This document shows, one piece after another, positions 465 through 23,467 of a DNA stretch of 23,467 bases (its first letter is position 1; each line of letters opens with the position of its first letter). The stretch is from the IMG/VR virus record IMGVR_UViG_3300042356_000788, positions 1 to 23,467 of that record, one strand, 5' to 3'. A program made the translations under genes and the position numbers. The notes below the pieces were generated by a model. It made no database searches and was not told the origin of the DNA. It saw nothing but the letters and a program-made list of their open reading frames with translations. The stretch is from a virus.

Positions 465-2923
465 TGGCAGTTATTACATCTACTACAACTGGTAATTTTT
501 CAGCAGGAGCAACTTGGGTTGGTGGAGTAGCACCTGTTGATGCTGATAGTTTTGTAATTGCAACTGGACATACAGTCACTTATAATGTCTCAACACCAGT
601 CACAAACGGTTTTGATGATAGTGATGTCTATGGAACTTTACAAACTCAAGTTGGTGCAGGAACCACCTTGAGAATGAATGGAAGATTAAGAATAAGAACT
701 AATGGAACTTATCACGCAAGAGCAGGACATAAGTTACAATTTAGAGGAACTGCTGCTGCTTCTCATATCCTTTATGGACAAGGAGAAACTGGCGCAAGCG
801 TTATTATGGAAGGTAGTGATGGTATGCCAACCACCACTCTTTCATCTGGTGCAAATGAACGAGCAACAAGTTTTGCTTTTACTTCTGCTACAAATTTTGC
901 AGTGGGAGAATGGTTTGCTATATTTGATAATACAACCACTCAAGCATCAAATGCAGGAGCATCTACATTAAGAGATGAGGGGTTTTGGATTCACGATATT
1001 GATTCTAATACAGTTTATTTTAGACAGTTTGTTGGACCAGAATCTACAGTTGTTTCTGCTTCTGGAACAAGTTTAGTTGTTGTTAATTCAAAAGTATTCC
1101 GTGTTGGTCAAATAATTATCTTTGGTACTGGTGCAAATCGTAATATTCATACTATTAGTGCAATTAATTATCTCAACCACACACTGACACTATCAGGTTC
1201 TGTTACTGGTACTGTTACGGGATTAACTGTTTATGAAACTGGTTCCGATAAGATTCACACTATTAATAACAAAGTGAGAAAGTGTGCTACTGTTACTACT
1301 GTTTCTTCTCTTGCAGCATCAACAACAATTACTGTAGCAAATGCCAATATGTTTGTTGCAAATGATGATATTTGGATTGAAGCCAGAAGTGAGGCAGGAG
1401 GATCAACTGACTATGCCCAAAGTGCGTATGGAAATGAAACACCCGGACCAAGATATAAACACACAATTTCATCTGTTTCTGGAAGTATTATTACACTTAC
1501 TGCTGCCGTTGGTTATAATGTAGTTTCTGGTGCATTAGTCAATCGTTTAACACGAGATGTAGTTATTGAACCAGTTACTCCAAACACAGACTATTATGGA
1601 GTGTATATTGAAGCAGGTGGCACCAATTACTCCAGAGCAATAATTTTTAAAGATGTATATTTGAAGTATGCGGGCAGCAGTCAAGGGCAAGCAGAAGGGG
1701 GATTATATCTTGGACCCGGTACTTGGAAATCTAATGTGAGTTTGCCTGTTACTTTAACAAATACTATTCCAGCACACAGTCAGAATAGTTGGTTAGAAGG
1801 AATTGTAATGACAGGTTCAAACTCTACTAGAGATTTGGGGGGATTTTGGATTTATGGTAGATATGATCAGATAAGATGTTGCCATGTTCAAGGTAGATTC
1901 AACGTTTCATATGCTTTATGGTATCGTGAGGGTCTATGTCTTTATAATAGTATAGGAGTTGCTAGTGAAGCATGGGGATGTAGATTGGAGGGATCAAGTG
2001 AATGGGCAGAAGTTGGTTATGTTTATATTTCTCGTTCAACTAGGGCAGGTAGATTTCACTTCTATGATGGTAATGTTGGGATTCATCACTACATTTCTAA
2101 TGGAACCGACTACCTTAATTTTGTTAGTGGTTTTTATAGAGGATACTATAAACATAAACATACGGGAAACAGACGAGGTATGGAAATGGATCCATACAAT
2201 AATAACACTCTAATATATTCTATATTTGAGTTTGTTAGTGGTTATTCTCCTGCTGCCAATAATCTGCAGGTTAGAGGAAGTTTTCATGGTGGGCATATTG
2301 ATAGAGGACATAATGGTGCATCTGGAAGTGTTATTGAACATAATATGGAATATGATGCTATCTATCAACAAACTTATCTTTCTGTAAGATTTTGGGATTC
2401 TGCCGAAGATGCTTGGAGAGTTTATTGGATTGCAGATGGTTCTGATTATGGAAGTGGTTGGTTTGAATCAGTTTTTGTTCCAGCAGGAGTTACTGTAAGA
2501 GCAAAAGCACAAATCAAATTGGCGCCAGGATTTTCTGGAACTTATCCAATATTTGAACAAAGAAATGTAATATCTGGAGTTGGACCAAATCAGTTAGCAA
2601 ATTCTGGTGGTCAAAACAGCACTTGGATGGCTGGTGGCAATGAAGCAGTTCGGTTTAGTGCTGCTGCAACAAGTGCTTATGAAACAAAAGAATTGACAAT
2701 TGCTCCAGTGGCATTTTCTCGTTATATAAATATAGGTGTTCATGTAGATTCAGCCACTTCTTCTGAGGGATGCTGGATGAAAAATATTACTGTTTTATTA
2801 GATAAACCATACGCCGTTCAAGCATTTGCCACAATAAATGGTAGTCAAACTAATTCAGCACTTGTTAATGTTGGAAGTTCTCTATCAGAAAGAAAAATAA
2901 GACTTGGAGGGGGAGTTTTCTAA
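464..2923 (+). CDS. Large probable beta-helix adhesin with G8-like N-terminus, 819 aa
   Basis: The ATG at 464 overlaps the preceding stop (TAATG). Residues about 8-120 carry a glycine-punctuated pattern (G-N-F-S-A-G-A-T-W, G-G-V-A-P-V-D-A-D, A-T-G-H-T-V-T-Y) that resembles the G8 domain found in extracellular and phage surface proteins. The following roughly 600 residues are rich in G, S, T, N, V and I with short regular beta-prone stretches, as expected of a right-handed beta-helix fibre. A more aromatic, Cys-containing stretch (roughly residues 450-560) may be the ligand-facing part. No signal peptide or membrane segment is seen. Neighbours are fibre proteins on both sides, so a tail-fibre or baseplate adhesin role is likely. 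G8 assignment is by eye and moderate; a depolymerase activity cannot be excluded, but no catalytic motif is evident. Confidence 0.65.
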   Translation: MAVITSTTTGNFSAGATWVGGVAPVDADSFVIATGHTVTYNVSTPVTNGFDDSDVYGTLQTQVGAGTTLRMNGRLRIRTNGTYHARAGHKLQFRGTAAASHILYGQGETGASVIMEGSDGMPTTTLSSGANERATSFAFTSATNFAVGEWFAIFDNTTTQASNAGASTLRDEGFWIHDIDSNTVYFRQFVGPESTVVSASGTSLVVVNSKVFRVGQIIIFGTGANRNIHTISAINYLNHTLTLSGSVTGTVTGLTVYETGSDKIHTINNKVRKCATVTTVSSLAASTTITVANANMFVANDDIWIEARSEAGGSTDYAQSAYGNETPGPRYKHTISSVSGSIITLTAAVGYNVVSGALVNRLTRDVVIEPVTPNTDYYGVYIEAGGTNYSRAIIFKDVYLKYAGSSQGQAEGGLYLGPGTWKSNVSLPVTLTNTIPAHSQNSWLEGIVMTGSNSTRDLGGFWIYGRYDQIRCCHVQGRFNVSYALWYREGLCLYNSIGVASEAWGCRLEGSSEWAEVGYVYISRSTRAGRFHFYDGNVGIHHYISNGTDYLNFVSGFYRGYYKHKHTGNRRGMEMDPYNNNTLIYSIFEFVSGYSPAANNLQVRGSFHGGHIDRGHNGASGSVIEHNMEYDAIYQQTYLSVRFWDSAEDAWRVYWIADGSDYGSGWFESVFVPAGVTVRAKAQIKLAPGFSGTYPIFEQRNVISGVGPNQLANSGGQNSTWMAGGNEAVRFSAAATSAYETKELTIAPVAFSRYINIGVHVDSATSSEGCWMKNITVLLDKPYAVQAFATINGSQTNSALVNVGSSLSERKIRLGGGVF
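2906..2915 (+). promoter_or_regulatory. Strong Shine-Dalgarno site for the collagen/S74 gene
   Basis: GGAGGGGGAG lies inside the end of the upstream gene, nine bases before the ATG at 2925. It decides the start: the in-frame TTG at 2904 would overlap this site and has no ribosome-binding site of its own. Confidence 0.7.
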
Positions 2924-2924
2924 A

Positions 2925-4418
2925 ATGCCAAAAGATGTAATCATAACACCCGCATCGGGTCTAGTAGATTTTCAAGGAAATACCGGCATTAGTAGTGCGA
3001 CTATTCAGTTGGATGATAATGGAAATCTCAACATCGCAAATCCGGGTGGAGATTTAACTCTTGGTGATACAAGTCGTGATATTTTTATTGGTGATGGTGT
3101 TAATAACGTAGATATTGTTTTTGAACAGAGTGGAGAAATACGAGGTCTTACTAATAAAACAGTATCATTAGGGCAGACTGATAGTTATATCAAAATTGCT
3201 GGGGGATTAAAGGATAGTAATAATCAAGTAGGTACTGCAAGTTCTGTATTAATTTCCACTGGTATTGGAGTCAGTTGGATACCAATTGCAACTGCTGCAC
3301 TTCAGGGAGTCCAGGGTGCTCAAGGAATTGTAGGTGCTCAAGGAGTTCAGGGTGCCCAAGGAGTCCAAGGTGCTCAAGGAGTCCAAGGTGCTCAAGGAGT
3401 TCAGGGTGCCCAAGGAGTCCAAGGTGCTCAAGGAGTTCAGGGTGCCCAAGGAGTCCAAGGTGCTCAAGGAGTTCAAGGAGTTCAAGGTTCTAGTGATGGT
3501 GGATTTACTGTATTTGATAACACCACAACAAATTCAAACTGGTATGTTGGAATTCTTTCGGTCACATCAGGAATTGCCAAAACTGCTCACGTTTCTTCAA
3601 CAAAACTCCAATTCAATCCTTCAACTGGTACACTTGGAATTGGTACTATAATTGATATTGTTCCTTATGATACTCTAAACTCCGGCACCTTATCTTGGGA
3701 AGGTAGTGCGGGTCAATTATTCTCAATTACAAATAATCTATCAACTGGAAGCCTCTTCTCTGTAAATGATATTTCAGGTATTCCAAGTATTGATGTAGAT
3801 GCAAGTGGAGTAATTTCTTTAGGTGCTTATGGTGGTAATATTGGAGTAGGAACCACAAATCCAACAAGAACTCTTTCTATAATTGGTGATGTGGGAATTG
3901 GAAGGTCAATTTATGACTCAACAAATTCATCAGGAACTACAGGTCAGGTTCTTCAATCAACTGTAACTGGAATTGGATGGACAACATTTAGTGGTGGCGC
4001 AACACTCAATAATACTCCATCTGGAACTTTATATCCAACAATGAGTGCTACAACTGTTGGAACATATTCAACTGCTTATACCTCATCTACCGCACTTACC
4101 TTTACTACATCAACAGGAACCGTATCAGCAACACAGTTCACTTCACTTTCAGATGTATCTAGAAAAACTAATATTGAACCTATTAAGAATGCACTTGAAC
4201 TCACTAAACAACTTAATGGAGTAAGATTTGATTGGAAGCATAATGATAAACCTTCAATTGGTGTAATTGCTCAAGATATTGAAAAAATTATTCCAGAAGT
4301 TGTTGAGACTAATGATGATGGAACAAAATCAGTATCTTATGGAAATCTTATAGGAGTATTGATTGAGGCAATTAAAGAACAACAACTTCGTATTGAAGAA
4401 TTAGAGAGGAGAATCTAA
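2925..4418 (+). CDS. Tail fibre with collagen-like repeat and C-terminal S74 chaperone, 497 aa
   Basis: I choose the ATG at 2925 (M-P-K-D-V-I-I-T), one base after the upstream stop, because of the strong ribosome-binding site before it. Residues about 1-125 are a beta-rich head. Residues 128-188 are 20 uninterrupted G-X-Y triplets, nearly all GAQ or GVQ, which should form a collagen-like trimeric rod. Residues about 195-405 contain G-I-G-T and G-V-G-T motifs typical of phage fibre shafts. From S409 on, S-D-V-S-R-K, G-V-I-A-Q-D-I, P-E-V-V and S-V-S-Y-G-N-L match the peptidase S74 intramolecular chaperone. In that family the Ser and Lys (S409, K414) drive self-cleavage once the trimer has folded, so the mature fibre should end near residue 408. 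A C-terminal coiled coil (E-Q-Q-L-R-I-E-E-L-E-R-R) follows. Next gene starts immediately at 4419. Confidence 0.88.
   Translation: MPKDVIITPASGLVDFQGNTGISSATIQLDDNGNLNIANPGGDLTLGDTSRDIFIGDGVNNVDIVFEQSGEIRGLTNKTVSLGQTDSYIKIAGGLKDSNNQVGTASSVLISTGIGVSWIPIATAALQGVQGAQGIVGAQGVQGAQGVQGAQGVQGAQGVQGAQGVQGAQGVQGAQGVQGAQGVQGVQGSSDGGFTVFDNTTTNSNWYVGILSVTSGIAKTAHVSSTKLQFNPSTGTLGIGTIIDIVPYDTLNSGTLSWEGSAGQLFSITNNLSTGSLFSVNDISGIPSIDVDASGVISLGAYGGNIGVGTTNPTRTLSIIGDVGIGRSIYDSTNSSGTTGQVLQSTVTGIGWTTFSGGATLNNTPSGTLYPTMSATTVGTYSTAYTSSTALTFTTSTGTVSATQFTSLSDVSRKTNIEPIKNALELTKQLNGVRFDWKHNDKPSIGVIAQDIEKIIPEVVETNDDGTKSVSYGNLIGVLIEAIKEQQLRIEELERRI
3306..3488 (+). repeat. Tandem 18-bp repeat encoding collagen-like GXQ triplets
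   Basis: The core 3333-3476 is eight 18-bp units, A=GGTGCTCAAGGAGTTCAG, B=GGTGCCCAAGGAGTCCAA and C=GGTGCTCAAGGAGTCCAA, in the order A-B-C-A-B-A-B-A' (A' ends in CAA). The recurring A-B pair points to 36-bp expansion units. The array opens long alternative frames on both strands, which are not genes. Such arrays change copy number by slippage or recombination and would set rod length. Confidence 0.9.
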
Positions 4419-10676: not shown

Positions 10677-11849
10677 ATGCCCGCAGACGATATTAATTAT
10701 AGTTTTACAGAGAACGGAGTAGTTTATAATTTTTATGATGTCTTTGTTCCGGCAGAAACTTTTAGACAACCTGCATTATGGTCTTGGGGTCTTAATTTTT
10801 ATGGACAATTAGGAGTAAATGATACCACATATAGAAGCACTCCAGTCACTACGCTACTTGGTGGTAACAATTGGAAATCTATTGCGAGTGGAAAATCTCA
10901 TACAGTAGCACTTAAAACTGATGAAACTCTATGGTCTTGGGGTGGTAATAATAGTGTACAACTAGGTGTAAATGATAATACACATAGAAGCACTCCAGTC
11001 ACTACGCTACTTGGTGGTAACAATTGGAAATCTATTGCTTGTGGAGGTTATCATACGATAGCACTTAAGACTGATGGAACTCTATGGTCTTGGGGTTCTA
11101 ATCTTTTTGGACAACTAGGTGTAAATGATACTACACGAAGAAGCACTCCAGTCACTACACTACTTGGTGGTAACAATTGGAAATCTATTACTGGTGGATT
11201 TTATCATACCATAGCACTTAAGACTGATGGAACTCTATGGTCTTGGGGTTATAATGATAATGGACAACTAGGTGTAAATAATACTACATCTAGAAGCACT
11301 CCAGTCACCACACTACTTGGTGGAACCAATTGGAAATCTATTGCTGGTGGATATTATCATACTATAGCACTTAATACTGATGGGACTTTATGGAATTGGG
11401 GTAGTAATGATAATGGACAACTAGGTGTAAATAATACTACATCTAGAAGCACTCCAGTCACCACACTACTTGGTGGAACCAATTGGAAATCTATTGCTGG
11501 TAAAGGTTTTCATACCATAGCAATTAAGACTGATGGAACTCTATGGACTTGGGGTCGTAATTCTTATGGAGCATTAGGTGTAAATGATACCACACATAGA
11601 AGCACTCCAGTCACCACACTACTTGGTGGTAACAATTGGAAATCTATTGCGAGTGGATTTTTTCATACCATAGCAATTAAGACTGATGGAACTCTATGGA
11701 CTTGGGGTCGTAATGTTTATGGACAATTAGGAGTCAATGATATTACACAAAGAAATACTCCAGTCACTACACTACTTGGTGGTAACAATTGGAAATCTAT
11801 TGCTGGAGGTTATCATACTATAGCAATTCAATATCAACCTGACCCCTAA
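10677..11849 (+). CDS. RCC1-like seven-bladed beta-propeller protein C, 390 aa
   Basis: Start ATG 10677 has an A-A-G-G-A site at 10665-10669 overlapping the previous stop. The N-terminal 32 residues (Y-D-V-F-V-P-A-E-T-F) differ from those of A and B but keep the pattern of an acidic/hydrophobic anchor just before L-W-S-W-G. Residues 33-388 are seven RCC1-like repeats, the last one residue short in the A-G-G-Y-H-T turn. Repeat two has V instead of G (G-x-N-x-x-V) as in protein A repeat six, and repeats four and five share the loop N-N-T-T-S-R, a sign of recent duplication or conversion. It is separated from the other propellers by the first enzyme block, which ends 10 bases upstream. A receptor-binding virion role is inferred. 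Confidence 0.88.
   Translation: MPADDINYSFTENGVVYNFYDVFVPAETFRQPALWSWGLNFYGQLGVNDTTYRSTPVTTLLGGNNWKSIASGKSHTVALKTDETLWSWGGNNSVQLGVNDNTHRSTPVTTLLGGNNWKSIACGGYHTIALKTDGTLWSWGSNLFGQLGVNDTTRRSTPVTTLLGGNNWKSITGGFYHTIALKTDGTLWSWGYNDNGQLGVNNTTSRSTPVTTLLGGTNWKSIAGGYYHTIALNTDGTLWNWGSNDNGQLGVNNTTSRSTPVTTLLGGTNWKSIAGKGFHTIAIKTDGTLWTWGRNSYGALGVNDTTHRSTPVTTLLGGNNWKSIASGFFHTIAIKTDGTLWTWGRNVYGQLGVNDITQRNTPVTTLLGGNNWKSIAGGYHTIAIQYQPDP
10773..11840 (+). repeat. Seven tandem RCC1 coding repeats (gene C)
   Basis: Same 153-bp family as genes A and B. Units four and five share an almost identical stretch in their second half of the loop region. The last unit is one codon shorter. Confidence 0.9.
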
Positions 11850-11862
11850 AATATCATAACAA

Positions 11863-12642
11863 ATGAAAAATCTTTATTTTCTTTCTGGTCTTCCCAGAAG
11901 TGGTTCAACATTATTAGGTTCCATTCTTTCTCAACATTCCAAACTTCAAGCAACTCCAACATCTCCTCTTGCCGATTTACTTTGTTGGATTGATGAAGGA
12001 TTTTCTAAATTAGATATTCAATATACATACGACAAAGATAACATTCAATACAATACTTATCATTCAATTCTTTCAAATTTTTATAATCATATTGAAAAAC
12101 CTTGTATATTAGATAAGCATCGTGGATGGTGTAAGAATGTCTCTTCAATTGAAAAGTATATTCATCAAAAACCAAAAATTATAGCAACTAATCGTAGAAT
12201 TTCAGAAGTTCTTGCTTCTTATATTATTCTTTTGGAAAAAAATGGAACTAATAATTTTGTAGATGCTCATTTAAGACGAGAAGGAACTCCCATCACAACA
12301 ACTAATCGTATTGAATGTCTTTGGAAAAATTATGTAAGTGACCCATATCAAAGTCTAGTCTATGGATTACAACATCATTCACATAATATTCATTTAGTTG
12401 ATTATAATCATCTTATAGAAAATCCAGAGAATGAAGTGAAAAAGATTTATGAATTTCTAGAAATAGAATCTCATAAACACGATTTTTCCAACATTCTAAA
12501 TACTTGTGCCGAAGATAAAGATGATGCCTGGGGAATTGATAATCTTCATCAAATTCGTCCAAAACTTCAAAGAACTTCACCTTCTCCAGAAGAAATTATT
12601 GGAGAAGAAAATGTAAAACTTTATGATAAATTTAATATATGA
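11863..12642 (+). CDS. PAPS-dependent sulfotransferase, 259 aa
   Basis: S-G-L-P-R-S-G-S-T-L-L at residues 8-18 is the 5'-phosphosulfate-binding loop of the sulfotransferase superfamily. I-I-A-T-N-R-R-I-S-E-V-L-A-S at 106-119 fits the 3'-phosphate site, with R111 or R112 and S119 spaced as usual. Length is normal for bacterial and phage members. It would transfer sulfate from PAPS to a hydroxyl of a sugar, protein or small molecule in the cytosol. Sulfotransferases occur in T4-like cyanophages, generally with unknown substrate. The gene starts 13 bases after propeller C and ends in an ATGA overlap with the next, opening the second enzyme block. Confidence 0.85.
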   Translation: MKNLYFLSGLPRSGSTLLGSILSQHSKLQATPTSPLADLLCWIDEGFSKLDIQYTYDKDNIQYNTYHSILSNFYNHIEKPCILDKHRGWCKNVSSIEKYIHQKPKIIATNRRISEVLASYIILLEKNGTNNFVDAHLRREGTPITTTNRIECLWKNYVSDPYQSLVYGLQHHSHNIHLVDYNHLIENPENEVKKIYEFLEIESHKHDFSNILNTCAEDKDDAWGIDNLHQIRPKLQRTSPSPEEIIGEENVKLYDKFNI

Positions 12643-13337
12643 AAAAAATTGAAGTCTTCTTAAGACATTGTTATTATTCAAAGATACAAGAACAACCGAA
12701 TAAAGAAAGACCAGATTGGTGGAATAAGGAAAAAGTATTTGGGAATTTCAAAAATACTTTAAATTCAGAAACCACTAATTATACTCTCATTTATGATGAG
12801 CATTATGGGAAGATTGAAGATACCTTTCTTTCTCAAGAAGAGAATATTCATATCATTAATGCGGGAGGAGAATCAATAAGTTTTCTAAAAACTTTAGAAT
12901 ATGTTCTTTCAAAGAACTTTGATGATGATACAATCATTTATTTTCTAGAAGATGATTATGTTCATCGCCCAAACTGGGATACAATTTTACAAGAAGGATT
13001 TGAACTTCCAGTTTCTTATGTGACTTTATATGACCACAAAGACAAATATTCAGAAATGTATGGGGATTTGATGAGTAAGATTTTAATTACAAAGAGTTCT
13101 CATTGGAAACCAGTTCCTTCCACTACAAATACTTTTGCAACAAAGTTCAAAACACTAAAAGAAGATAAGAGAATTCATTATCAATATTCTACAAATGTAG
13201 AACCTACAGCAGACCATCAAAAGTTTTTAGATTTAAATCAAAAAGGAAGATATTTAATTTCTTGTCTTCCTGGTTATTCAACACACGCAGTAAAAGAAAT
13301 GATTTCCCCTTGTATTGATTGGAGTCTTTATCTATGA
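12639..13337 (+). CDS. GT-A-type glycosyltransferase, 232 aa
   Basis: ATGA overlap with the sulfotransferase gene. I-I-Y-F-L-E-D-D-Y-V-H-R-P-N-W at about 99-113 contains the acidic E-D-D signature at the position of the DxD metal and nucleotide-sugar site. S-T-T-N-T-F-A near 161, A-D-H-Q-K-F near 191 and G-Y-S-T-H-A near 212 are further motifs of this phage- and bacterium-associated family. Compact single-domain protein without membrane segments. The metal-dependent nucleotide-sugar fold is well supported; donor and acceptor are unknown. It ends in an ATGA overlap with the fusion gene. Confidence 0.65.
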   Translation: MKKIEVFLRHCYYSKIQEQPNKERPDWWNKEKVFGNFKNTLNSETTNYTLIYDEHYGKIEDTFLSQEENIHIINAGGESISFLKTLEYVLSKNFDDDTIIYFLEDDYVHRPNWDTILQEGFELPVSYVTLYDHKDKYSEMYGDLMSKILITKSSHWKPVPSTTNTFATKFKTLKEDKRIHYQYSTNVEPTADHQKFLDLNQKGRYLISCLPGYSTHAVKEMISPCIDWSLYL

Positions 13338-15484
13338 ATTGGAAAGAAGTTCCTGGATTCTTTGATTCTGATTTAGTTTATAAATTAGCAGTAAATAAGT
13401 TTTCGGATGATTCAACTTTTGTTGAAATTGGTTCCTGGATGGGTAAGTCTGCATCTTGTTTAGGGCAACTTATTAAGGAATCTAAAAAGAATATCAAGGT
13501 ATTTGCCGTAGATACTTTTGAAGGTAGTGAAGAGCATACTGAAATAGTAAATGATATAAGAAATAATTCAACTTCATTATTAGAAATATTTCAAAGAAAT
13601 ATGTCTCTATGTGAAGTTGATGATATTGTTTCTCCAATTCAAGGAAGAAGTTTAGATATTGCATCACAATTTGATGATGAAAGTATTGACTTTATTTTTA
13701 TAGATGCATCTCACGATTATGAAAATGTTTTAGCAGACATTACTGCTTGGTATCCAAAACTTAAACCAGGTGGATTAATTGCTGGTGATGATTATGCTCT
13801 CTGTTGGAGTGGGGTTATTCAAGCAGTTGATGAGTATTTTAAAAATAAGACTACATTTTTTCTAAATGGGAATTTGAATTATGATTATTCTCAAAGAATT
13901 TTTCACTGGTGTAACTTTAAACCAAAACCCGAGGAGACTAAAATGAATGTAACTTTATATGCTATCGCTAAAAATGAAGAGAGAAATATTGAGAAGTTCA
14001 TTAAAAACTCAAAAAGATTTTCTCATACAGTAGTAGTTGATACTGGAAGCACTGATAATACAGTTTCATTACTTAAAGACGCTGGAATTGAAGTTTATGA
14101 GCATTCACAATCTAAAAAGGAATTTGATTTTTCGGTAGCAAGAAATCAGGCACTTTCTTATGTAAAAACTGACTGGGCATTTTCAATTGATTTTAATGAA
14201 GATATTCAAGACTTATTTTTAGAAGGATTGAATATGATTGAGAATGAACTCACATCCTTTAAACATTTGAGATTTGATGATATTGGTGAAGAAGAACCAC
14301 AACAATCAAATGAAGTTCATACAAGATTTCATCGCACCAAGAATTATAAGTGGGTAAATGCAGTTCACGAAATGCCTGTGTTTGTTTCTAGTGAAGAGTT
14401 TGAAAATGAAGTTCATATAGAAACTTCTATTAAGATTACAAAAAAGATTAATCGTTCAGTCTCAAAGGAACTATTTTACTTTGATATTTGTGAAAGAGAA
14501 TATCAAAAAGACAAAACTAACTGGTATTATATTTGGTTTATTTTCAATCACTATTTTAATGTTGGAAATCATCAAAAGGCACTTGAGTTTGGTCAAGAAT
14601 ATTTAAATGTATCCAAATCATACTTTGATACTTTTAGAATTATTGCTTTCATTAAGTGTAGTATTTGCCTCATACAACTTCAAGATACTCCAAAAGGAGC
14701 AAACTATGCTTTTCACGCAGTAAGTGAAGCAATGAATCTAGGAGAACCTTATCTCTCTCAAGCATTTTCATATCTCACTGAACTCTCTAAAAAATTAAAC
14801 AATCCAAATATTACTGTCTTTGCTACAGCATTTAATCAAAATACATTACTATCTGCAGAAAGGCATAAAGCAATTGATAACTTATTTTTAACTAATCTTG
14901 ATGATATTCCATCAACCTGTTGGACTGGACATCGTAGATTTGCTGAATGGATTGTAAGTTATCTAAAACCAGAAGTAACTGTTGATTTAGGTGTTGATTG
15001 GGGGTTCTCAACCTTTTGCTTTGCTATGCCTAGAATTGGTCAAGTATATGGAATTGATAATTTTATGGGTGATGACTTTACAGGACTTACTGGAGGACAT
15101 AATTATGATTATGTTCTGACGAAAAGAGAGAAACTTTTTATGGACGAAAATGTGACTTTTATTAAAGGAGATTTTAATGAAATTGCAGAAACCTGGAATA
15201 AGAAGATTAATATTCTTCATATTGATGGAAGTCACAAATACGAAGATGTTAAGAATGATTTTGAAACTTGGAGTAAGTTCTTAAGTGATGATGGAGTAAT
15301 TCTTTTACACGATACTTGTGTAGAAAGTGCCTTTGGTAATGAATATGGAGTCAAGAGATTTTTTGATGAAATTGACCTTCCAAAATGTACTTTTACTCAC
15401 ACCTATGGTCTTGGAGTAGTATCAAAAAATCAACAGTTAATTAAATTAATTCAAAATAATTTTGATTTATCAAGACCTTTATGA
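13334..15484 (+). CDS. Methyltransferase-GT2-methyltransferase fusion protein, 716 aa
   Basis: ATG 13334 overlaps the previous stop (ATGA); the in-frame TTG at 13319 lacks a ribosome-binding site. Residues about 1-198 are a class I SAM methyltransferase of the Methyltransf_24 type (V-E-I-G-S-W at 30-35, F-I-D-A-S-H-D-Y at 122-129, P-G-G-L-I-A-G-D-D-Y at 145-154). Residues about 204-345 are a GT2-like domain (A-K-N-E-E near 212, D-T-G-S-T-D-N-T at 236-243). At the DxD site it reads D-F-N-E-D (286-290), with Asn in place of the second Asp. A helical, TPR-like spacer spans about 380-490. Residues about 536-716 are a second methyltransferase (V-D-L-G-V-D-W-G at 550-557, H-I-D-G-S-H-K-Y at 629-636, G-V-I-L-L-H-D at 654-660). 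The first methyltransferase is paralogous to the N-terminus of the 940-aa protein. Likely substrates are glycans or sugar nucleotides (inference). Confidence 0.75.
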   Translation: MNWKEVPGFFDSDLVYKLAVNKFSDDSTFVEIGSWMGKSASCLGQLIKESKKNIKVFAVDTFEGSEEHTEIVNDIRNNSTSLLEIFQRNMSLCEVDDIVSPIQGRSLDIASQFDDESIDFIFIDASHDYENVLADITAWYPKLKPGGLIAGDDYALCWSGVIQAVDEYFKNKTTFFLNGNLNYDYSQRIFHWCNFKPKPEETKMNVTLYAIAKNEERNIEKFIKNSKRFSHTVVVDTGSTDNTVSLLKDAGIEVYEHSQSKKEFDFSVARNQALSYVKTDWAFSIDFNEDIQDLFLEGLNMIENELTSFKHLRFDDIGEEEPQQSNEVHTRFHRTKNYKWVNAVHEMPVFVSSEEFENEVHIETSIKITKKINRSVSKELFYFDICEREYQKDKTNWYYIWFIFNHYFNVGNHQKALEFGQEYLNVSKSYFDTFRIIAFIKCSICLIQLQDTPKGANYAFHAVSEAMNLGEPYLSQAFSYLTELSKKLNNPNITVFATAFNQNTLLSAERHKAIDNLFLTNLDDIPSTCWTGHRRFAEWIVSYLKPEVTVDLGVDWGFSTFCFAMPRIGQVYGIDNFMGDDFTGLTGGHNYDYVLTKREKLFMDENVTFIKGDFNEIAETWNKKINILHIDGSHKYEDVKNDFETWSKFLSDDGVILLHDTCVESAFGNEYGVKRFFDEIDLPKCTFTHTYGLGVVSKNQQLIKLIQNNFDLSRPL
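13931..13936 (+). promoter_or_regulatory. Internal Shine-Dalgarno in front of in-frame Met204 of the fusion gene
   Basis: GAGGAG stands six bases before an in-frame ATG at 13943, exactly where the GT2 domain starts (M-N-V-T-L-Y-A-I-A-K-N-E-E). It could allow separate translation of a GT2-methyltransferase product or be the relic of a gene joined by loss of a stop. Confidence 0.5.
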
Positions 15485-16689: not shown

Positions 16690-17382
16690 TTGGCGATAAA
16701 TTACAATCCAAAAATAATAACAGATAATCTCGTTCTTTGTTTAGACGCAGCAAATCCAAAGTCTTATCCAGGGTCTGGAACCACTTGGACTGATTTGAGT
16801 GGTCGTGGTAATACTGGAACTCTTGTGAATGGGGTTGGATATTCTAGTGCTAATAAGGGTTCTTTGGTTTTTGATGGGGTTGATGATTATGTTACATATA
16901 ATCTTGCTAATCCTTATGCTGAAACAGTTATAGTGTGGGCAAAATCTGTCACTACAACTTGGAATAAGGATGGTTGGATTTCTTCTTCTAGACAGGCAAA
17001 TGGACATATCATACATCCAAATAATTATTATGGTGCAACTAGAGATATAGAGTTTTATGTTTTAAGTTCTTCTGTAACATTTACCCAGATTGGTAGGATT
17101 ACTACTTTATCTGATATAACAATTCCTCATATGTATGTTTACACTACAAATGGTAGCAACGAGCATAAAGTATATATTGACGGAACTCTTATGATTACTA
17201 ACACCACATCAATTACAAGAACAACAACACCTTCTCCAGTATCCACTTGGATTGGAAGTGATCAACAAGGAGGTAGAAATGGGCAAGGGAATGTTTATAA
17301 TTATTTTAGATACAACAGAGCACTCTCCGCAGCAGAAGTCAAACAAAACTATAATGCAACCAAGTCCCGCTATGGTCTTTGA
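16690..17382 (+). CDS. LamG-like (concanavalin-fold) fibre protein 1, 230 aa
   Basis: TTG start with AGGTGA ribosome site. The core L-V-L-C-L-D-A-A-N at 14-22, T-W-T-D-L-S-G at 32-38, G-T-L-V-N-G-V-G-Y at 43-51 and V-F-D-G-V-D-D-Y at 60-67 is typical of LamG/concanavalin-like jelly-roll domains in cyanophage structural proteins. The end Y-N-R-A-L-S-A-A-E-V-K-Q-N-Y near 208-221 is the characteristic closing strand and helix. These domains bind carbohydrate or protein; here they likely serve in host adhesion or as head or tail decoration. First of three paralogues in tandem. No signal peptide or membrane segment. Confidence 0.8.
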   Translation: MAINYNPKIITDNLVLCLDAANPKSYPGSGTTWTDLSGRGNTGTLVNGVGYSSANKGSLVFDGVDDYVTYNLANPYAETVIVWAKSVTTTWNKDGWISSSRQANGHIIHPNNYYGATRDIEFYVLSSSVTFTQIGRITTLSDITIPHMYVYTTNGSNEHKVYIDGTLMITNTTSITRTTTPSPVSTWIGSDQQGGRNGQGNVYNYFRYNRALSAAEVKQNYNATKSRYGL

Positions 17383-17407: not shown

Positions 17408-18148
17408 ATGTTAATGCACGGAGCAAAAGAACCACTGGGAGTAACATCAGGATTAGTCTTATATCTTGATGCGGCAAATGCAAGGTCTTATCCAAAATCT
17501 GGACTGACTTGGTTTGATAGAAGTGGTAATGGAAATAATGGAACTCTTGTGAATGGAGTGGGATATAGTGGAAGCAATTATGGGTCTTTTGTTTTTGATG
17601 GGGTTGATGATTATACTTCATTAACTAATCCCTCAACTATTCGCAACCAAAATTTTACTTTATCTGTTTGGGTTAATCCCGCAGTTCAAACTCTTGCACT
17701 TGTTTCAATGATAGATTTTGATCACGCCACTACTAGTTTTAATCAGGGATGGGTGTTACAATCTGAAGATGCAACTACAAACAGATATTTTTATCTTGCT
17801 TGGCACGACGGAGCAACCTTTCAACCTACTGGTGGAGGTGGAATTGGCGCAGGAAAAGGTATTCAAATTACAACTTCAGTTTGGCAAAATATAACTTATG
17901 CCAAAAATGGAACATCGTTATTGGGATATAAAAATGGCATCCAAGTATATACGGGAACTGCTAGTAATGGTAACGTTAATTATATAATCAATAGAGATTT
18001 GTTTATTGCGCAAATTCGTTTTAGTTTTTTTGGTTCACGAATTTTTAAAGGCAACATCTCCAACACCCAAATATACAACAGAGCACTCTCCGCAACAGAA
18101 GTAAAACAAAACTATGATGCTCTTAAAGGACGTTATGGTCTCACATAA
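17408..18148 (+). CDS. LamG-like fibre protein 2, 246 aa
   Basis: ATG start with an AGAGGAA site at 17394-17400. A 14-residue leader (M-L-M-H-G-A-K-E-P) differs from the paralogues. The LamG core follows: L-V-L-Y-L-D-A-A-N-A-R-S-Y, G-N-G-N-N-G-T-L-V-N-G-V-G-Y, F-V-F-D-G-V-D-D-Y, and the closing I-Y-N-R-A-L-S-A-T-E-V-K-Q-N-Y. The D-L-S-G motif of the paralogues reads F-D-R-S-G here. The middle part (about 75-200) diverges strongly from paralogues 1 and 3, as expected of a ligand-specific face. Virion adhesion role inferred. Confidence 0.8.
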   Translation: MLMHGAKEPLGVTSGLVLYLDAANARSYPKSGLTWFDRSGNGNNGTLVNGVGYSGSNYGSFVFDGVDDYTSLTNPSTIRNQNFTLSVWVNPAVQTLALVSMIDFDHATTSFNQGWVLQSEDATTNRYFYLAWHDGATFQPTGGGGIGAGKGIQITTSVWQNITYAKNGTSLLGYKNGIQVYTGTASNGNVNYIINRDLFIAQIRFSFFGSRIFKGNISNTQIYNRALSATEVKQNYDALKGRYGLT

Positions 18149-18421: not shown

Positions 18422-19222
18422 GTGGGTGTTTATGGTGGTGTTGAAAAGAACTGGGCAGCACTCACAAACACAGGAAGAACTCACGTTGCAACCAAAGGAG
18501 TAGTTCAGTCTGGATTAGTATTGAATCTGGATGCGGGAGTTTCAAGTTCTTATGGAGGTTCTGGAACGACTTGGACTGATTTGAGTGGTAATGGAAATAA
18601 TGGAACTCTTGTGAATGGTGTGGGTTATAATGCGTCTAATGGTGGTTCTTTGAGTTTTGATGGGGTTGATGATTATGTTACCAATATTGCTCCTAATTTA
18701 ACAACTGCACAAATTGAGGGTTCACTTACGTATGAATATTGGTTAAAAGCAAACTCAACCATATATGCCTCCTATACTGAAAGTCTTTCTGGAACATCAT
18801 ATTATGGAAATAGGTCTGGAAATGGACTATCTGGTGATACTTATTACAATTATAACAATAGTGCCTACGCAGGATATCAGTTTTGTTTTGGAACTAACGG
18901 ATTTGTAGTAGGAGTACATAACAATAATTTTGCCCCAACAATATTGGTGAATTATACTAGTTATCCAAATATATGCCATTTAGTTGTAATCAAAACTACA
19001 AATGGATTTTCATATTATATTAATGGTATCTTTATACGAAGTTCTTTATCAACAACTAGAATATTTGGAGATAGCCTAACAAGAATAACAGCAGGATTGG
19101 ATACAAACTTTGCTAGATCCTTTAATGGAATAATGTATTCGTACAAATTATACAACAGAGCACTCACAGCATCAGAAATCTCACAAAACTTTTTGGCGAT
19201 GAGAGCACGGTTCGGCATTTAA
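18422..19222 (+). CDS. LamG-like fibre protein 3, 266 aa
   Basis: GTG start one base after the previous stop, with a strong ribosome site. A longer leader (residues 1-28, W-A-A-L-T-N-T-G-R-T-H-V) precedes the LamG core: G-L-V-L-N-L-D-A-G-V, T-W-T-D-L-S-G-N-G-N-N-G-T-L, S-F-D-G-V-D-D-Y, and the closing L-Y-N-R-A-L-T-A-S-E-I-S-Q-N-F. Third member of the tandem set; the central loops (about 90-220, rich in Y, N, S) are unique to it. Probable carbohydrate-binding virion protein. Followed by 150 bases without a secure gene. Confidence 0.8.
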   Translation: MGVYGGVEKNWAALTNTGRTHVATKGVVQSGLVLNLDAGVSSSYGGSGTTWTDLSGNGNNGTLVNGVGYNASNGGSLSFDGVDDYVTNIAPNLTTAQIEGSLTYEYWLKANSTIYASYTESLSGTSYYGNRSGNGLSGDTYYNYNNSAYAGYQFCFGTNGFVVGVHNNNFAPTILVNYTSYPNICHLVVIKTTNGFSYYINGIFIRSSLSTTRIFGDSLTRITAGLDTNFARSFNGIMYSYKLYNRALTASEISQNFLAMRARFGI

Positions 19223-19233
19223 TCCCTCTCACC

Positions 19234-19395
19234 TTGACGAATACGCTTGATACTTTAAGTGTTTATGTTGCTCAAGAAGTACCAGGAGCAATTGGAATTA
19301 TTTGGGGTCCAGGAAGATCACAAGCATATGAGACGTATAATAAATACATTCAAGAACAGATTATGAGCATATATGAAATATCATATCATAGATAA
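19234..19395 (+). other. Doubtful short reading frame, possible gene remnant
   Basis: Between the third LamG gene and the oxygenase gene lies a 150-base gap (19223-19372). One frame is open through it, from 19123 inside the LamG gene to the TAA at 19393-19395. From a TTG at 19234 it would give 53 residues (T-L-D-T-L-S-V-Y-V-A-Q-E, then I-I-W-G-P-G-R-S-Q-A-Y). There is no ribosome-binding site and no ATG, and it overlaps the oxygenase start by 23 bases. The composition looks protein-like, so it may be the worn end of a lost gene. I do not count it as a secure CDS. Confidence 0.25.
19339..19346 (+). promoter_or_regulatory. Candidate T4-like late promoter (AATAAATA)
   Basis: Full match to NATAAATA in the 150-base gap, 26 bases before the ATG at 19373. 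Spacing is close to that of the box before the first LamG gene (27 bases). Confidence 0.4.
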
Positions 19396-20065
19396 TTTTT
19401 TTGATATTGAAAGAGCAAAAAGAATAGAACAAGAATTTCCAGAATATAATTGCCCAGCGTGGTTTGAATATAACAACCAACTGGAAGTTAAAAGATCTTG
19501 TAATAACTGGTATTATTTTGGACCAGAAACTTATAAAACTTTTGCATATTTAAATTCTCCAGAGTTTATTGAAAAACTCAAAGAAATAACAGGAATAAAA
19601 ACACTATACCCTGATATTGGATTGCATGGTGGTGGGTTACATTTACTTGGAAAAAATGGTAAATTAAATGTCCATCTAGATTATTCAATTCATCCTAAAT
19701 TAAAACTTCAAAGAAAATTAAATCTTATCATTTATACAACTCAAAATTGGAATGTAGAATGGGGTGGTAATCTTGAATTTTGGTCTCATAATAATTTAAT
19801 AAATAAACCGGATGAAAAGATAGTTACAGTAGATAATATCTTTAATCGTGCAGTTTTATTTGATACAACTCACAATTCCTGGCACGGATTTGCAACTCCA
19901 ATGACTTGTCCAGAAGGAGTTTATAGAAAGAGTCTGGCAGTTTATTATCTTACTGATCCACCAGAAGGAACTGACCCAAGACCCAGAGCACTTTATGCCC
20001 CATCAAAAGGGCAAGAACTGAATCAAGAAATTTTAAAACTTATTGAGGAAAGAGCTAAGTTATGA
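19373..20065 (+). CDS. 2OG-Fe(II) oxygenase, prolyl-hydroxylase-like, 230 aa
   Basis: The double-stranded beta-helix motif set is intact: H101-L-D103 for iron, distal H171 in N-S-W-H-G-F, and R185 (or K186) in R-K-S-L-A-V-Y-Y for 2-oxoglutarate. W-G-G-N-L-E-F-W at 130-137 is the usual strand between them. The opening Y-H-I-I-D-N-F-F is typical of the P4H/SM-20-like group common in T4-like cyanophages. The enzyme would hydroxylate a protein or small-molecule substrate using Fe(II), O2 and 2-oxoglutarate; the substrate is unknown. ATG 19373 has only a weak ribosome site. It ends in an ATGA overlap with the giant fusion gene, which carries a second 2OG-type domain. Confidence 0.85.
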   Translation: MKYHIIDNFFDIERAKRIEQEFPEYNCPAWFEYNNQLEVKRSCNNWYYFGPETYKTFAYLNSPEFIEKLKEITGIKTLYPDIGLHGGGLHLLGKNGKLNVHLDYSIHPKLKLQRKLNLIIYTTQNWNVEWGGNLEFWSHNNLINKPDEKIVTVDNIFNRAVLFDTTHNSWHGFATPMTCPEGVYRKSLAVYYLTDPPEGTDPRPRALYAPSKGQELNQEILKLIEERAKL

Positions 20066-22884
20066 ACCACATTTACAACCAATCGCAATTCGGTGAAGTC
20101 TGGTTTAATTATCCAGAACTTTATAGTTCTATGGTGAAAAGATTTTCATCTGGAAGTAAATTTGTAGAGATTGGTTCTTGGAAAGGAATGTCTTCTGCTT
20201 ATATGGCGGTAGAAATTGCAAACTCGGGAAAAGATATTGATTTATACTGTGTGGATACGTGGGAAGGAAGTGTTGAACACGAACAATATGAAATGGACAC
20301 TTCTAATCTTTACGATACTTTCCTGAATAATATGGAACCAGTAAGAAAGTATTATAAAGGTATTCGTGCAAAATCACTACAAGGAGTCAAGCAATTTGAA
20401 GACAACTCATTAGACTTTGTTTTTATTGATGCTTCACACGAATACCAAGATGTAAAAGACGATATAATTTCTTGGCTCCCAAAAGTAAAGCAAGGGGGCG
20501 TAATTGCTGGGCACGATTATCTTAATGTCGATTTTCCTGGAGTTGAAAAGGCAGTTCAAGAAGTTCTTGGAAATAAAATTACCACACAAGAAACTTGTTG
20601 GGTTTATGAGAAGACCGAGGTTGAATTGAACTCAAAAGTATTCATCGTCACTCCTTCTCGTAGACCTTTTAATCTTGAGTTTATTGTAGGTTCAGTTCCG
20701 AGAGAATGTGAATGGGTTGTAGTATTTGATGATACTGTAAAGAATGAGCACACAGTAGAAAATGCTACTGTTATTCATTCACAAGAGACTGGGTTCTGGG
20801 GAAATCCAAATCGCAATATTGGTCTAGAATATATTAAGAATCAGTTAAATCCAAGTGATAATGATTGGGTTTATATTTTAGATGATGATAATATAATTCA
20901 TCCAAATTGGTGGAGCAATATTCAATCACACCTCAACAGTGATGCTTCAATCATTACTTGGGGTCAGGTCTGGGCAAATGATGAACCTCGCACTGCACCC
21001 ACAGACACTCCTAAAATTGCACAGATTGATACTTCACAATACATGGTTCGTTGGAGTGTTGCAAAGAACCTTCGTTTTGCTCATATTTACGAAGCAGACG
21101 GAATTTATGCGGAAGAAGCATCGAAACAAGGTTCAGTTCTAATGCTCAACGAGTATCTAGGATACTATAACTTTCTTCGGGCACACAAGTCTGGGCAAGA
21201 AATCCGTACAAATATCTGTATGATTTCTATGTTTAAGAATGAAGCGAAGGGTATTCGTAGAATGCTTGAGAGTGTCTGGAGACATATTGATTTTTATGTA
21301 TTTCAAGATAATGGTTCCACTGACGGAACACCAGATATTGTAAAAGAGTTTTTTGCAGATAAGAACATTCCTGGTTTCATTTATAATATTGAGGAAGGTT
21401 GGGTTGGTTTTGGTTGGAACCGAGACCATTTACTTCAAACCACACTTCGTAATGACCACGGGTGTGATTGGATCATGAAAATGGATTGTGATGAATATCT
21501 AGAAGTAGACGAAGATTTTGATTGGTCTTATTTCTATAATACTAATACTGAAAGTTTTCATGTAACTGCAGTTAATCCTGGTTGTATCTACTATCGTGCC
21601 TGGATTTGGAATGCAAAACTACCCTGGAGATTTCAACACGATCTCGCTCACGAAATCATTTATCTGGATAATGATAAAGGAGAGAACTTTGAGAGATTAA
21701 ATCTTCCTCGCGGTTTAAGAATGTCGGGAACCAGTGATGGGGAAAGTTATACTGTAAGAACTAAGTATATTACTGATGCACTTAAACTTGAAGAAAAAAT
21801 GATTCGTGAAGAAACAATGCTCACGGATACTTATCACTTCTGGTATATTGCAAAATCTTATCAAGATTGTTATGGAGGAAATTTTTATCCCTTAAAAGAA
21901 GCACACTCAAAAGAGTTTGCCCGCAGATTTATTTTCTACTTTGAAGAATATCTAAAGCACGTAAATGCACAAGGTATTCACGAGATGTCTTATTTCTCTA
22001 CATTCTCTATTGGTCTTGGGTATAAGTATCTTGGAAATTATGAGAAAGCAATAGAATGGTTTCATAAAGCGGAAAAATACTGCCCAGTAAGAAATGAGCA
22101 CATTGTATATCTTGCTCAAACTTATGATGAACTAAAGCAGTATGATAAGATGCTGGAGCAAACAACAAGACTCGTAGATCCGGAAAGAAAACTTCCATTT
22201 CCAGATTATTACTTCTTAATTGATACCAACATCTATCAAGATAGTGGGGATTGCCCACAAAATCTTCATAACTATGCTCTGTTAAAGGTCAGTGAAGAAA
22301 AAACTATTAACTCATTCACTATTAATACAACAACCAAACCGAGACTTTGGATTGTAGATGATTTTTATGCTGACCCATATGCTGTAAGAGAATTTGCTCT
22401 TCAACAAGAATTTGAACCAAATCTTAATTACTATAAAGGCAGTCGTTCAAATCAACAGTATATTGCCCCAGGAACGAAGGAAGCATTTGAGAAAATTATA
22501 GGGAAAAAGATTACAAACTGGACTGAAACTCACGGAATGTGTGGTAGATTTCAGTATTGCACAGCAGAAGATTCTCTAGTGTATCACTGCGATGGACAAA
22601 CACTTGCCGGTATGGTATATCTAACTCCTGATGCACCATTCTCTTGTGGGACTTCTTTGTATGCTCATAAAGATACAAAATTAAGAAATGAAAATGATTT
22701 TAAAGATACTAATGTTTTTGAAGGTGGTTATTATGATAAGACCAAATTTCAACTTGTAGACACCGCTGGCAATGTTTTTAATCGTCTGGTTCTTTTTGAT
22801 GCAAAATGTATTCACTCTGCAAATGAATACTTTGGAACAGACCTAACTAACTCAAGATTATTTCACTTATTCTTCTTTGATTGA
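20062..22884 (+). CDS. Multidomain fusion: methyltransferase, GT-A, GT2, TPR, 2OG-Fe oxygenase, 940 aa
   Basis: ATGA overlap, with a GAGGAA site at 20045-20050. Domain 1 (about 1-184): Methyltransf_24-type SAM methyltransferase (V-E-I-G-S-W at 35-40, F-I-D-A-S-H-E-Y at 121-128, G-G-V-I-A-G-H-D-Y). Domain 2 (about 192-375): GT-A-like, with Y-I-L-D-D-D-N at 271-277. Domain 3 (about 384-545): GT2, with S-M-F-K-N-E-A near 389, D-N-G-S-T-D-G-T at 416-423 and intact M-D-C-D-E at 474-478. About 575-705: TPR-like helices (Y-L-G-N-Y-E-K-A-I-E-W-F). Domain 5 (about 757-940): a DUF6445-like 2OG-Fe dioxygenase with H842-C-D844, distal H918 and R932. All catalytic residues seem present. The stand-alone oxygenase upstream is of a different subfamily. 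The combination points to sequential modification of one glycan or glycoprotein, which is inference. Confidence 0.8.
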   Translation: MNHIYNQSQFGEVWFNYPELYSSMVKRFSSGSKFVEIGSWKGMSSAYMAVEIANSGKDIDLYCVDTWEGSVEHEQYEMDTSNLYDTFLNNMEPVRKYYKGIRAKSLQGVKQFEDNSLDFVFIDASHEYQDVKDDIISWLPKVKQGGVIAGHDYLNVDFPGVEKAVQEVLGNKITTQETCWVYEKTEVELNSKVFIVTPSRRPFNLEFIVGSVPRECEWVVVFDDTVKNEHTVENATVIHSQETGFWGNPNRNIGLEYIKNQLNPSDNDWVYILDDDNIIHPNWWSNIQSHLNSDASIITWGQVWANDEPRTAPTDTPKIAQIDTSQYMVRWSVAKNLRFAHIYEADGIYAEEASKQGSVLMLNEYLGYYNFLRAHKSGQEIRTNICMISMFKNEAKGIRRMLESVWRHIDFYVFQDNGSTDGTPDIVKEFFADKNIPGFIYNIEEGWVGFGWNRDHLLQTTLRNDHGCDWIMKMDCDEYLEVDEDFDWSYFYNTNTESFHVTAVNPGCIYYRAWIWNAKLPWRFQHDLAHEIIYLDNDKGENFERLNLPRGLRMSGTSDGESYTVRTKYITDALKLEEKMIREETMLTDTYHFWYIAKSYQDCYGGNFYPLKEAHSKEFARRFIFYFEEYLKHVNAQGIHEMSYFSTFSIGLGYKYLGNYEKAIEWFHKAEKYCPVRNEHIVYLAQTYDELKQYDKMLEQTTRLVDPERKLPFPDYYFLIDTNIYQDSGDCPQNLHNYALLKVSEEKTINSFTINTTTKPRLWIVDDFYADPYAVREFALQQEFEPNLNYYKGSRSNQQYIAPGTKEAFEKIIGKKITNWTETHGMCGRFQYCTAEDSLVYHCDGQTLAGMVYLTPDAPFSCGTSLYAHKDTKLRNENDFKDTNVFEGGYYDKTKFQLVDTAGNVFNRLVLFDAKCIHSANEYFGTDLTNSRLFHLFFFD

Positions 22885-22886
22885 AA

Positions 22887-23467
22887 ATGAAATTTAGTAT
22901 TATTACGCCTTCACATAAACAACATTCTTATCTTGATGAACTCTATGAGAGCATCACAAAACAAACTCACGATGACTGGGAATGGATTCTTTATTTAAAT
23001 GGATCTTTAACTAAAAATCAACTTTCGCAAAAAATCACAAAAGATAGCAAAGTAAAAATCTTCGAAGACAAAGAAAACAATACTAACATCGGATATGTAA
23101 AAAATAAAGCATTCTCATTAGGAACTGGAGATGTTCTTGTTGAAGTTGACCATGACGACATTCTTACTCCAGATTGCTTAAACGAACTTGAAATAGCATT
23201 TGAAAATAATCCAGAGTGTGGTTTTGTTTATAGTAATAATGCAACTTATCATATGGAAGATAAGTTTGTTCCCTATGGTCCCGTATTTGGTTGGACTTAT
23301 ACGAATTATGACTGGAATGGTAAGAAACTGATTGCGATGAATTCTTTTGAACCATCTAGTCACTCACTTTCTTATATTTGGTATGCTCCAGATCATGTAA
23401 GAGCATGGAAAAGGGATGTTTATCATCAAATTGGTGGGCATAATGTAGAACTTTCTATATGTGATGA
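22887..23467 (+). CDS. GT2 family glycosyltransferase (3' partial)
   Basis: The ATG at 22887, two bases after the preceding stop, opens a frame that is still open at the window edge (193 codons seen). M-K-F-S-I-I-T-P-S-H-K and L-Y-E-S-I-T-K-Q-T-H-D-D-W-E-W are the classic first strand and helix of GT2 enzymes. N-I-G-Y-V-K-N-K-A-F and V-E-V-D-H-D-D-I-L-T-P at about 87-97 provide the nucleotide-sugar and metal-binding acidic motif (D-H-D-D). The catalytic-base region is only partly included. It belongs to the same unit as the oxygenase and the 940-aa fusion. Donor and acceptor unknown. Confidence 0.85.
   Translation, partial: MKFSIITPSHKQHSYLDELYESITKQTHDDWEWILYLNGSLTKNQLSQKITKDSKVKIFEDKENNTNIGYVKNKAFSLGTGDVLVEVDHDDILTPDCLNELEIAFENNPECGFVYSNNATYHMEDKFVPYGPVFGWTYTNYDWNGKKLIAMNSFEPSSHSLSYIWYAPDHVRAWKRDVYHQIGGHNVELSICD

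Follow-up and report, generated by a model that had tools for sequence, protein, structure and literature searches.

P0001 is a 940-residue multidomain protein encoded in a 23,467-nucleotide viral record (IMG/VR IMGVR_UViG_3300042356_000788; "the window" below denotes this whole 23.5-kb stretch). We read it, with moderate confidence, as a phage enzyme that modifies protein, its probable substrate being the Gly-X-Gln collagen-like tail-fibre protein of the phage itself. Its constant part, conserved across viral loci, is a glycosyltransferase of family GT2 followed by a TPR-like helical domain and DUF6445, a domain with the predicted fold of an Fe(II)/2-oxoglutarate (2OG) oxygenase. The evidence points to action on a protein (collagen-like fibres), not on a free metabolite or an elongating glycan.

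The gene is a single, uninterrupted frame (Table 1), and the fusion it encodes is real, with every part maintained, since three observations agree on this. The window is 99.98% identical in DNA, across 9.4 kb, to a 124.7-kb viral contig (L002), which has the terminase, sheath, baseplate and connector genes of a T4-like myovirus; a further locus (L003) carries a collinear homologue of 943 residues; and, at a synonymous divergence (dS) of 1.3-1.7 between P0001 and this homologue, the ratio of nonsynonymous to synonymous change (omega) is 0.086 in the methyltransferase, 0.086 in the first and 0.039 in the second glycosyltransferase, 0.092 in the TPR domain and 0.065 in the oxygenase. All five domains are thus under purifying selection (omega 0.04-0.09). 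A frameshift or assembly error joining separate genes is ruled out by the same three observations, and the single five-module gene proposed by a first-pass annotation of the window stands.

That annotation had also given the order of the modules as methyltransferase, two glycosyltransferases, TPR and 2OG oxygenase, each with its key residues, and Pfam matches and predicted folds bear this out. Module 1 matches Methyltransf_24 at residues 35-153 (E 1e-21; PF13578, 78.2 bits against a cut-off of 26.3) and carries the motif EIGSWKG at residues 36-42; MeT1 of Mycobacterium hassiacum is among the Foldseek matches to the P0001 model (E 3e-5). The Pfam match of module 2 to GT2 is weak (residues 204-340, 22 bits, below the cut-off), but its predicted structure (residues 190-373) has a GT-A fold resembling WrtF (Z 16.9) and TarS (Z 16.5), and also TarP (Z about 16-17), which confirms it as a glycosyltransferase. 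Module 3 matches GT2 at residues 390-481 (E 1e-14), and modules 3-4 (residues 376-758 of the full-chain model) align with SunS and ThuS at Z 17.2-17.5 over about 280 residues. Modules 2 and 3 therefore both combine a GT-A fold with an acidic DxD-type motif (Z 16.9 and 17.5), DDD in the one and DCDE in the other. The NCBIfam equivalog for SunS itself (TIGR04195) scores 19.4 bits, where its cut-off is 350. A profile of the core picks up GmaR, the Listeria flagellin N-acetylglucosamine transferase, at E 8e-6; GmaR glycosylates flagellin (PMC9638930). Module 4 has a Pfam TPR match at residues 650-675 that is likewise weak (23 bits, below the cut-off), and in the predicted model its fold matches the TPR domain of CHIP at Z 13.9. 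The GT2-TPR part, as modelled, thus resembles protein and peptide glycosyltransferases of the SunS/ThuS and GmaR kind. In the full-chain AlphaFold2 model (pLDDT 78) a pTM of 0.43 makes the relative placement of the domains unreliable; Foldseek with this model ranks SunS/ThuS first, the human collagen-modifying LH3/ColGalT1 complex 11th and AspH, which joins TPR and 2OG domains, 12th.

Module 5 is recognized by Pfam as DUF6445 (PF20043, residues 758-921, 39.4 bits against a gathering cut-off of 24), and a profile scan of P0001 gave no match of this module to the Pfam 2OG models. Its metal ligands are H842-x-D844 and H918, with R932 as the 2OG-binding residue, and this HxD...H...R pattern is invariant across 29 aligned sequences, down to about 40% identity with the first sequence. 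Searched by sequence against PDB chains, the oxygenase profile returned only unrelated chains (E 0.25) and no 2OG enzyme, and a search by fold was therefore needed: an isolated model of the module (pLDDT 90) matches OGFOD1 (Z 13.9), PHD2 (Z 13.3) and a bacterial prolyl 4-hydroxylase (P4H), and the C-terminus of the full-chain model matches OGFOD1 at Z 13.8. Module 5 thus has, on its predicted structure, the double-stranded beta-helix fold of an Fe(II)/2OG oxygenase, closest to the prolyl hydroxylases OGFOD1 and PHD2. The two domains whose existence the first-pass annotation had left to profile searches, the 2OG domain and the middle glycosyltransferase, are accordingly found as DUF6445 and as a weak GT2 match, in agreement with the folds.

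The unit that is conserved is smaller than the whole protein. Among 63 viral loci, which were found by similarity to P0001 and are hence not independent, the constant part is GT2-TPR-DUF6445 (the core), encoded as a single chain in 47 loci and as two adjacent genes in 15 (L049-L062, L064), mostly with a 4-bp gene overlap (for example 1473-2603 and 2600-3181 in L049); in the remaining one (L063) it is interrupted by the contig end. Because they are fused in 47 loci and adjacent in 15, GT2-TPR and DUF6445 are taken to act together. In one scan of GTDB species genomes no relative of the whole core was seen in cells. The five-module order is ruled out as the conserved unit, for only P0001 with its counterpart in L002, and L003, show it; the search for the same architecture in other phages that had been proposed thus succeeds in these two, and the other loci differ at the N-terminus. 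There, Methyltransf_24 plus the first glycosyltransferase, as in the window and L003, gives way to a different methyltransferase plus this glycosyltransferase (L004, L005), to another glycosyltransferase separated from it by about 500 residues (L018), to a methyltransferase only (L006), or to a methyltransferase and/or an unnamed domain described below (L008, L019-L036, L041, L043, L053), or to nothing at all; in L014 the methyltransferase is a gene of its own immediately upstream of the core. DNA similarity with L006 and L008-L013 starts abruptly where module 3 begins, near window position 21205-21209. The N-terminal half is the site of swapping, with the methyltransferase and first glycosyltransferase as exchangeable add-ons.

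The core has a constant partner, a gene for a GT2-methyltransferase protein of about 415 residues (414 in L002), which adjoins it in 63/63 loci, downstream or upstream depending on the lineage; since gene order differs between lineages, this suggests that core and partner are kept together, not merely inherited together. The earlier idea of an assembly line for elongating, methylating and hydroxylating a single product survives in part: the constant unit is GT2-TPR-2OG with a separate GT2-methyltransferase gene, the N-terminal methyltransferase and first glycosyltransferase are absent, replaced or encoded separately in most relatives, and the evidence favours a protein as the substrate. The upstream gene is, as annotated, a second and different 2OG oxygenase (2OG-FeII_Oxy_3), which is P4H-like and unrelated to module 5; its relatives occur in 21 of the 63 core loci.

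The unnamed N-terminal domain recurs in core fusions (L021 4663-5430 and similar) and is marked by IAIFYHxYQ...YLHTKG...GNxWWA. Nothing in Pfam, NCBIfam or the PDB sequences matches it, and it is perhaps an undescribed glycosyltransferase family; its identity with an annotated 'beta-mannosyltransferase' of Synechococcus phage DSL-LC02 (L065) was considered and rejected on comparison.

The link to collagen-like proteins is statistical. The window itself encodes a tail fibre with a GVQGAQ repeat, which is the candidate substrate of P0001, and L002 has a second collagen-like open reading frame of 1733 residues. Collagen-like proteins are found in 18/23 long phage contigs picked by DUF6445. In a control set of 51 contigs of at least 39 kb chosen only by relatives of three terminases, they are found in 3/3 T4-like contigs with a close DUF6445 match (E below 1e-70) and in 6/48 others, among which two contigs with remote matches only are grouped (Fisher p 0.004), and pooling with the DUF6445-selected contigs gives 21/26 against 6/48 (p 7e-9), where phage kinship inflates both p values and the close matches in the unbiased sample number three. 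The repeats also differ: position Y is mostly Gln in 18/19 DUF6445-positive phages examined and Thr in 5/6 DUF6445-negative ones, a bias which tells only that the repeats differ, not which residue is hydroxylated.

The association extends to bacteria, where two scans of GTDB species genomes yielded 21 DUF6445 loci, 14 of them with a collagen-like Gly-X-Y gene within 2.8 kb. As these fall into only three lineages, Thiothrix (2), Burkholderiales (11 in Pandoraea, Roseateles and Massilia, forming one conserved cluster) and Ignavibacteriae (1), they count as three associations, not fourteen. In most of these genomes, of 4-8 Mb, the collagen search lists only a few matching sites; many more are listed for that of Ignavibacteriae. 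In Thiothrix, this neighbourhood also holds an orthologue of the phage partner gene, 37% identical along its whole length, and GT2 relatives of module 3 flank DUF6445 on both sides in Ignavibacteriae (24-25% identity); among 63 genomes of the order of Thiothrix, no DUF6445 locus was seen beyond the two already known. The collagen-like proteins of the Burkholderiales cluster have 58-100% Gln at position Y. In Pandoraea (L082 5685-10128) such a Gly-X-Gln gene is accompanied by an N-acetyl-sugar-amidotransferase-like gene, DUF6445 and a radical S-adenosylmethionine (SAM) peptide maturase of FxsB/YhhB type; the arrangement recurs in L084-L092, including Roseateles (L088), and looks like a cluster for a ribosomally synthesized and post-translationally modified peptide (RiPP) with a collagen-like precursor. 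In Lentzea (L093, and L095 7315-8606) two DUF6445 genes stand in tandem with no collagen-like gene nearby, and their substrate is possibly a different one.

Besides the small size of the unbiased sample, several observations weigh against collagen-like fibres as the substrate. A DUF6445-negative phage (G074) has Gly-X-Gln collagen. Across phage contigs the core is not significantly nearer to collagen genes than other genes are (mean rank fraction about 0.44), close as it is in some (15 bp in G038, 822 bp in G023, 1.9 kb in G041, 2.2 kb in G037), and in the freshwater lineage it lies amid nucleotide and replication genes. Collagen is missing from 5/23 long DUF6445 contigs, two of them with a full core; all contigs are fragments, so that such absence is weak evidence. 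Actinobacteria carry DUF6445 with no collagen gene nearby, which together with the radical SAM maturase of the Burkholderiales suggests that the domain may have other substrates. Contigs lacking the partner gene mostly lack collagen too (G034, G039, G042), and from these and the Actinobacteria it appears that stand-alone DUF6445 may have a different substrate.

The scheme that we infer for P0001, comprising its catalytic activity, substrate, modified residue, sugar, order of steps and benefit to the phage, would run as follows. The DUF6445 oxygenase would hydroxylate side chains within the collagen-like repeat; the fused SunS/GmaR-like GT2 would then add the first sugar, at a guess on the hydroxylated residue, with substrate recognition falling to the TPR domain; the N-terminal GT2 and the partner GT2-methyltransferase would lengthen the glycan, and the methyltransferases would methylate it. 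The N-terminal modules would be the part that phages exchange to alter the glycan, and the phage might gain fibre stability or evasion of recognition. A broader proposal is more tentative: DUF6445 may comprise prokaryotic and viral hydroxylases of collagen-like proteins preferring Gly-X-Gln, and T4-like phages may independently have built a fused hydroxylase-glycosyltransferase with exchangeable modules, giving their fibres a variable methylated glycan.

The same enzymes could instead modify a host-surface polysaccharide such as the O-antigen, with glycosyltransferases extending it, methyltransferases capping it and oxygenases trimming it, to shield the infected cell from other phages. GT2 enzymes and methyltransferases of the Methyltransf_24/TylF/CmcI type typically serve to modify polysaccharides and sugars, the closest matches of module 2 are the polysaccharide or teichoic-acid enzymes WrtF, TarS and TarP, and the glycosyltransferases of the pelagimyophage tail-fibre variable region have been interpreted in this way (PMC7029224). 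We nevertheless regard it as unlikely, for the constant core is of the protein-glycosyltransferase and protein-hydroxylase type, not of the polysaccharide type, bacterial DUF6445 relatives sit in collagen clusters, and DUF6445 tracks collagen in phages.

A small-molecule or RiPP assembly line, in which the modules act successively on a peptide natural product, seems quite improbable. The substrates of SunS and ThuS are RiPP peptides, DUF6445 clusters with the radical SAM maturase in Pandoraea and DUF6445 occurs in pairs in Lentzea, but no short precursor gene was recognized in the window, and the precursor-like gene of the Burkholderiales itself encodes a collagen-like Gly-X-Gln protein, so that this account overlaps with modification of collagen-like fibres. 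Pairing a 2OG oxygenase with a glycosyltransferase is also a known logic of viral DNA modification, and the freshwater cores adjoin ribonucleotide reductase and other replication genes; yet DNA hypermodification, with oxygenases hydroxylating and glycosyltransferases glycosylating a base, is scarcely probable, given that the nearest matches are prolyl hydroxylases for the fold of the oxygenase and protein glycosyltransferases with TPR for the glycosyltransferase, and that the oxygenase of Thiothrix, Pandoraea and Ignavibacteriae lies in chromosomal collagen clusters.

No characterized enzyme with this module order emerged from the searches made, as the first-pass annotation had surmised, and enzymes of the same logic are known. 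Mimivirus L230 (a lysyl hydroxylase plus glycosyltransferase) and human LH3/PLOD3 likewise carry, in a single chain, one or more glycosyltransferase domains and a C-terminal Fe(II)/2OG oxygenase, and the substrate of L230 is the virus's own collagen-like protein (PMC9614988). P0001 differs from both in its glycosyltransferase family (SunS-like GT2 with TPR), in its prolyl-hydroxylase-like DUF6445 oxygenase, in its extra methyltransferases and in a candidate substrate that is Gly-X-Gln with little Lys; no PLOD/LH3 family was found in the Pfam scan of P0001, nor any 2OG enzyme among PDB chains. It is best read, by architecture, as a phage analogue, not a homologue, of LH3 and L230. SunS, ThuS and GmaR share the succession of GT2 and TPR-like domain and act on protein or peptide; unlike them, P0001 is fused to an oxygenase. 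A064R of Chlorella virus PBCV-1 fuses two glycosyltransferases and a methyltransferase and completes the methylated glycan carried by a virion protein (PMC9614988); compared by architecture, this virus-encoded combination is shared with P0001, but in reversed order and without TPR or oxygenase. In Bacillus anthracis, BclA is a glycosylated collagen-like protein and a prolyl-4-hydroxylase is active on collagen-like peptides (PMC8968730), a bacterial, not phage, system of separate and unrelated enzymes. In the open-access literature we found no paper naming DUF6445 and no earlier report of a phage enzyme joining collagen, 2OG and glycosyltransferase themes; a Baltic Sea virome study comments on a possible action of the abundant viral P4HA genes on collagen tail fibres (PMC9301287). 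A virus-encoded collagen hydroxylase-glycosyltransferase is thus already known from mimivirus, and the bacteriophage version proposed here is new and apparently non-homologous.

If true, this would give a function to DUF6445, so far a family of unknown function, and add a third, apparently unrelated origin of fused collagen hydroxylation and glycosylation, after animals and giant viruses, in bacteriophages and bacteria; it would also partly explain the many 2OG oxygenases, glycosyltransferases and methyltransferases beside the fibres of aquatic T4-like phages, and suggest that tail fibres carry a glycan altered through domain swapping.

P0001 also matches phrog_1644, annotated 'minor coat protein' (E 8e-32), from the cyanophages Syn9 (gp46, gp52) and S-WAM2 (gp157). 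These proteins have the same oxygenase domain, but stand-alone and about 30% identical. Their operons group several 2OG oxygenases, in one case together with a tryptophan halogenase, and the name 'coat protein' is probably mistaken. The domain is also present in the cultured cyanophages S-SCSM2R and DSL-LC02. In the Syn9 record (L075, 34478-45466) the tryptophan halogenase and several 2OG oxygenases are accompanied by two DUF6445-like 'minor coat protein' genes, an annotation for which the fold gives no support.

Table 1. Positions in the window of P0001, its modules and associated genes.
Feature	Position	Strand	Evidence
P0001, 940-aa multidomain protein	20062..22884	+	ATG to stop, uninterrupted frame
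Module 1, class I methyltransferase (Methyltransf_24; sugar-type O-methyltransferase family), aa 1-188	20062..20625	+	Pfam E 1e-21
Module 2 (first glycosyltransferase), GT2/GT-A, DDD 274-276, aa 189-383	20626..21210	+	weak Pfam PF13641; structure
Module 3 (second glycosyltransferase, core), SunS/GmaR-like GT2, DCDE 475-478, aa 384-600	21211..21861	+	Pfam; structure; almost unchanged across 34 sequences
Module 4 (core), TPR-like helical domain, aa 601-748	21862..22305	+	weak Pfam TPR; structure
Module 5 (core), DUF6445, 2OG-Fe(II) oxygenase fold, aa 749-940	22306..22881	+	Pfam; alignment; fold
Partner gene, 5' part (GT2 + methyltransferase)	22881..23465	+	Pfam; neighbourhood comparison
Second 2OG oxygenase, P4H-like 2OG-FeII_Oxy_3, overlapping the P0001 gene upstream	19373..20065	+	Pfam E 3e-14
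Tail fibre, Gly-X-Gln collagen-like tract (Pfam match about 3315-3479) and S74 chaperone end	2904..4418	+	Pfam Collagen E 2e-9, Peptidase_S74

Other genes of the window belong to the same surroundings. A 721-residue fusion on the + strand (13319-15484) consists of Methyltransf_24, a SunS-like GT2 and a second Methyltransf_24. It shares 43% identity with module 1 at its N-terminus and probably plays an accessory part in that glycan pathway. A sulfotransferase gene (11863-12642; Pfam Sulfotransfer_1/3) lies in the same island, so that sulfation of the glycan or fibre is possible as well. Three RCC1-repeat (beta-propeller) proteins (4419-5597, 6269-7492, 10677-11849) stand amid the tail-fibre genes, and PHROGs ties repeats of this type to phage tail proteins. 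Three related laminin-G (ConA-like lectin) proteins in tandem (16690-17382, 17408-18148, 18422-19222) are likely a duplication of a carbohydrate-binding virion protein. In phage DSL-LC02, a gene annotated as FkbM methyltransferase (L065 9842-11995) lies between collagen-like tail-fibre genes and a DUF6445 gene, and shows by eye a C-terminal CxxxCxxC motif like that of radical SAM enzymes.

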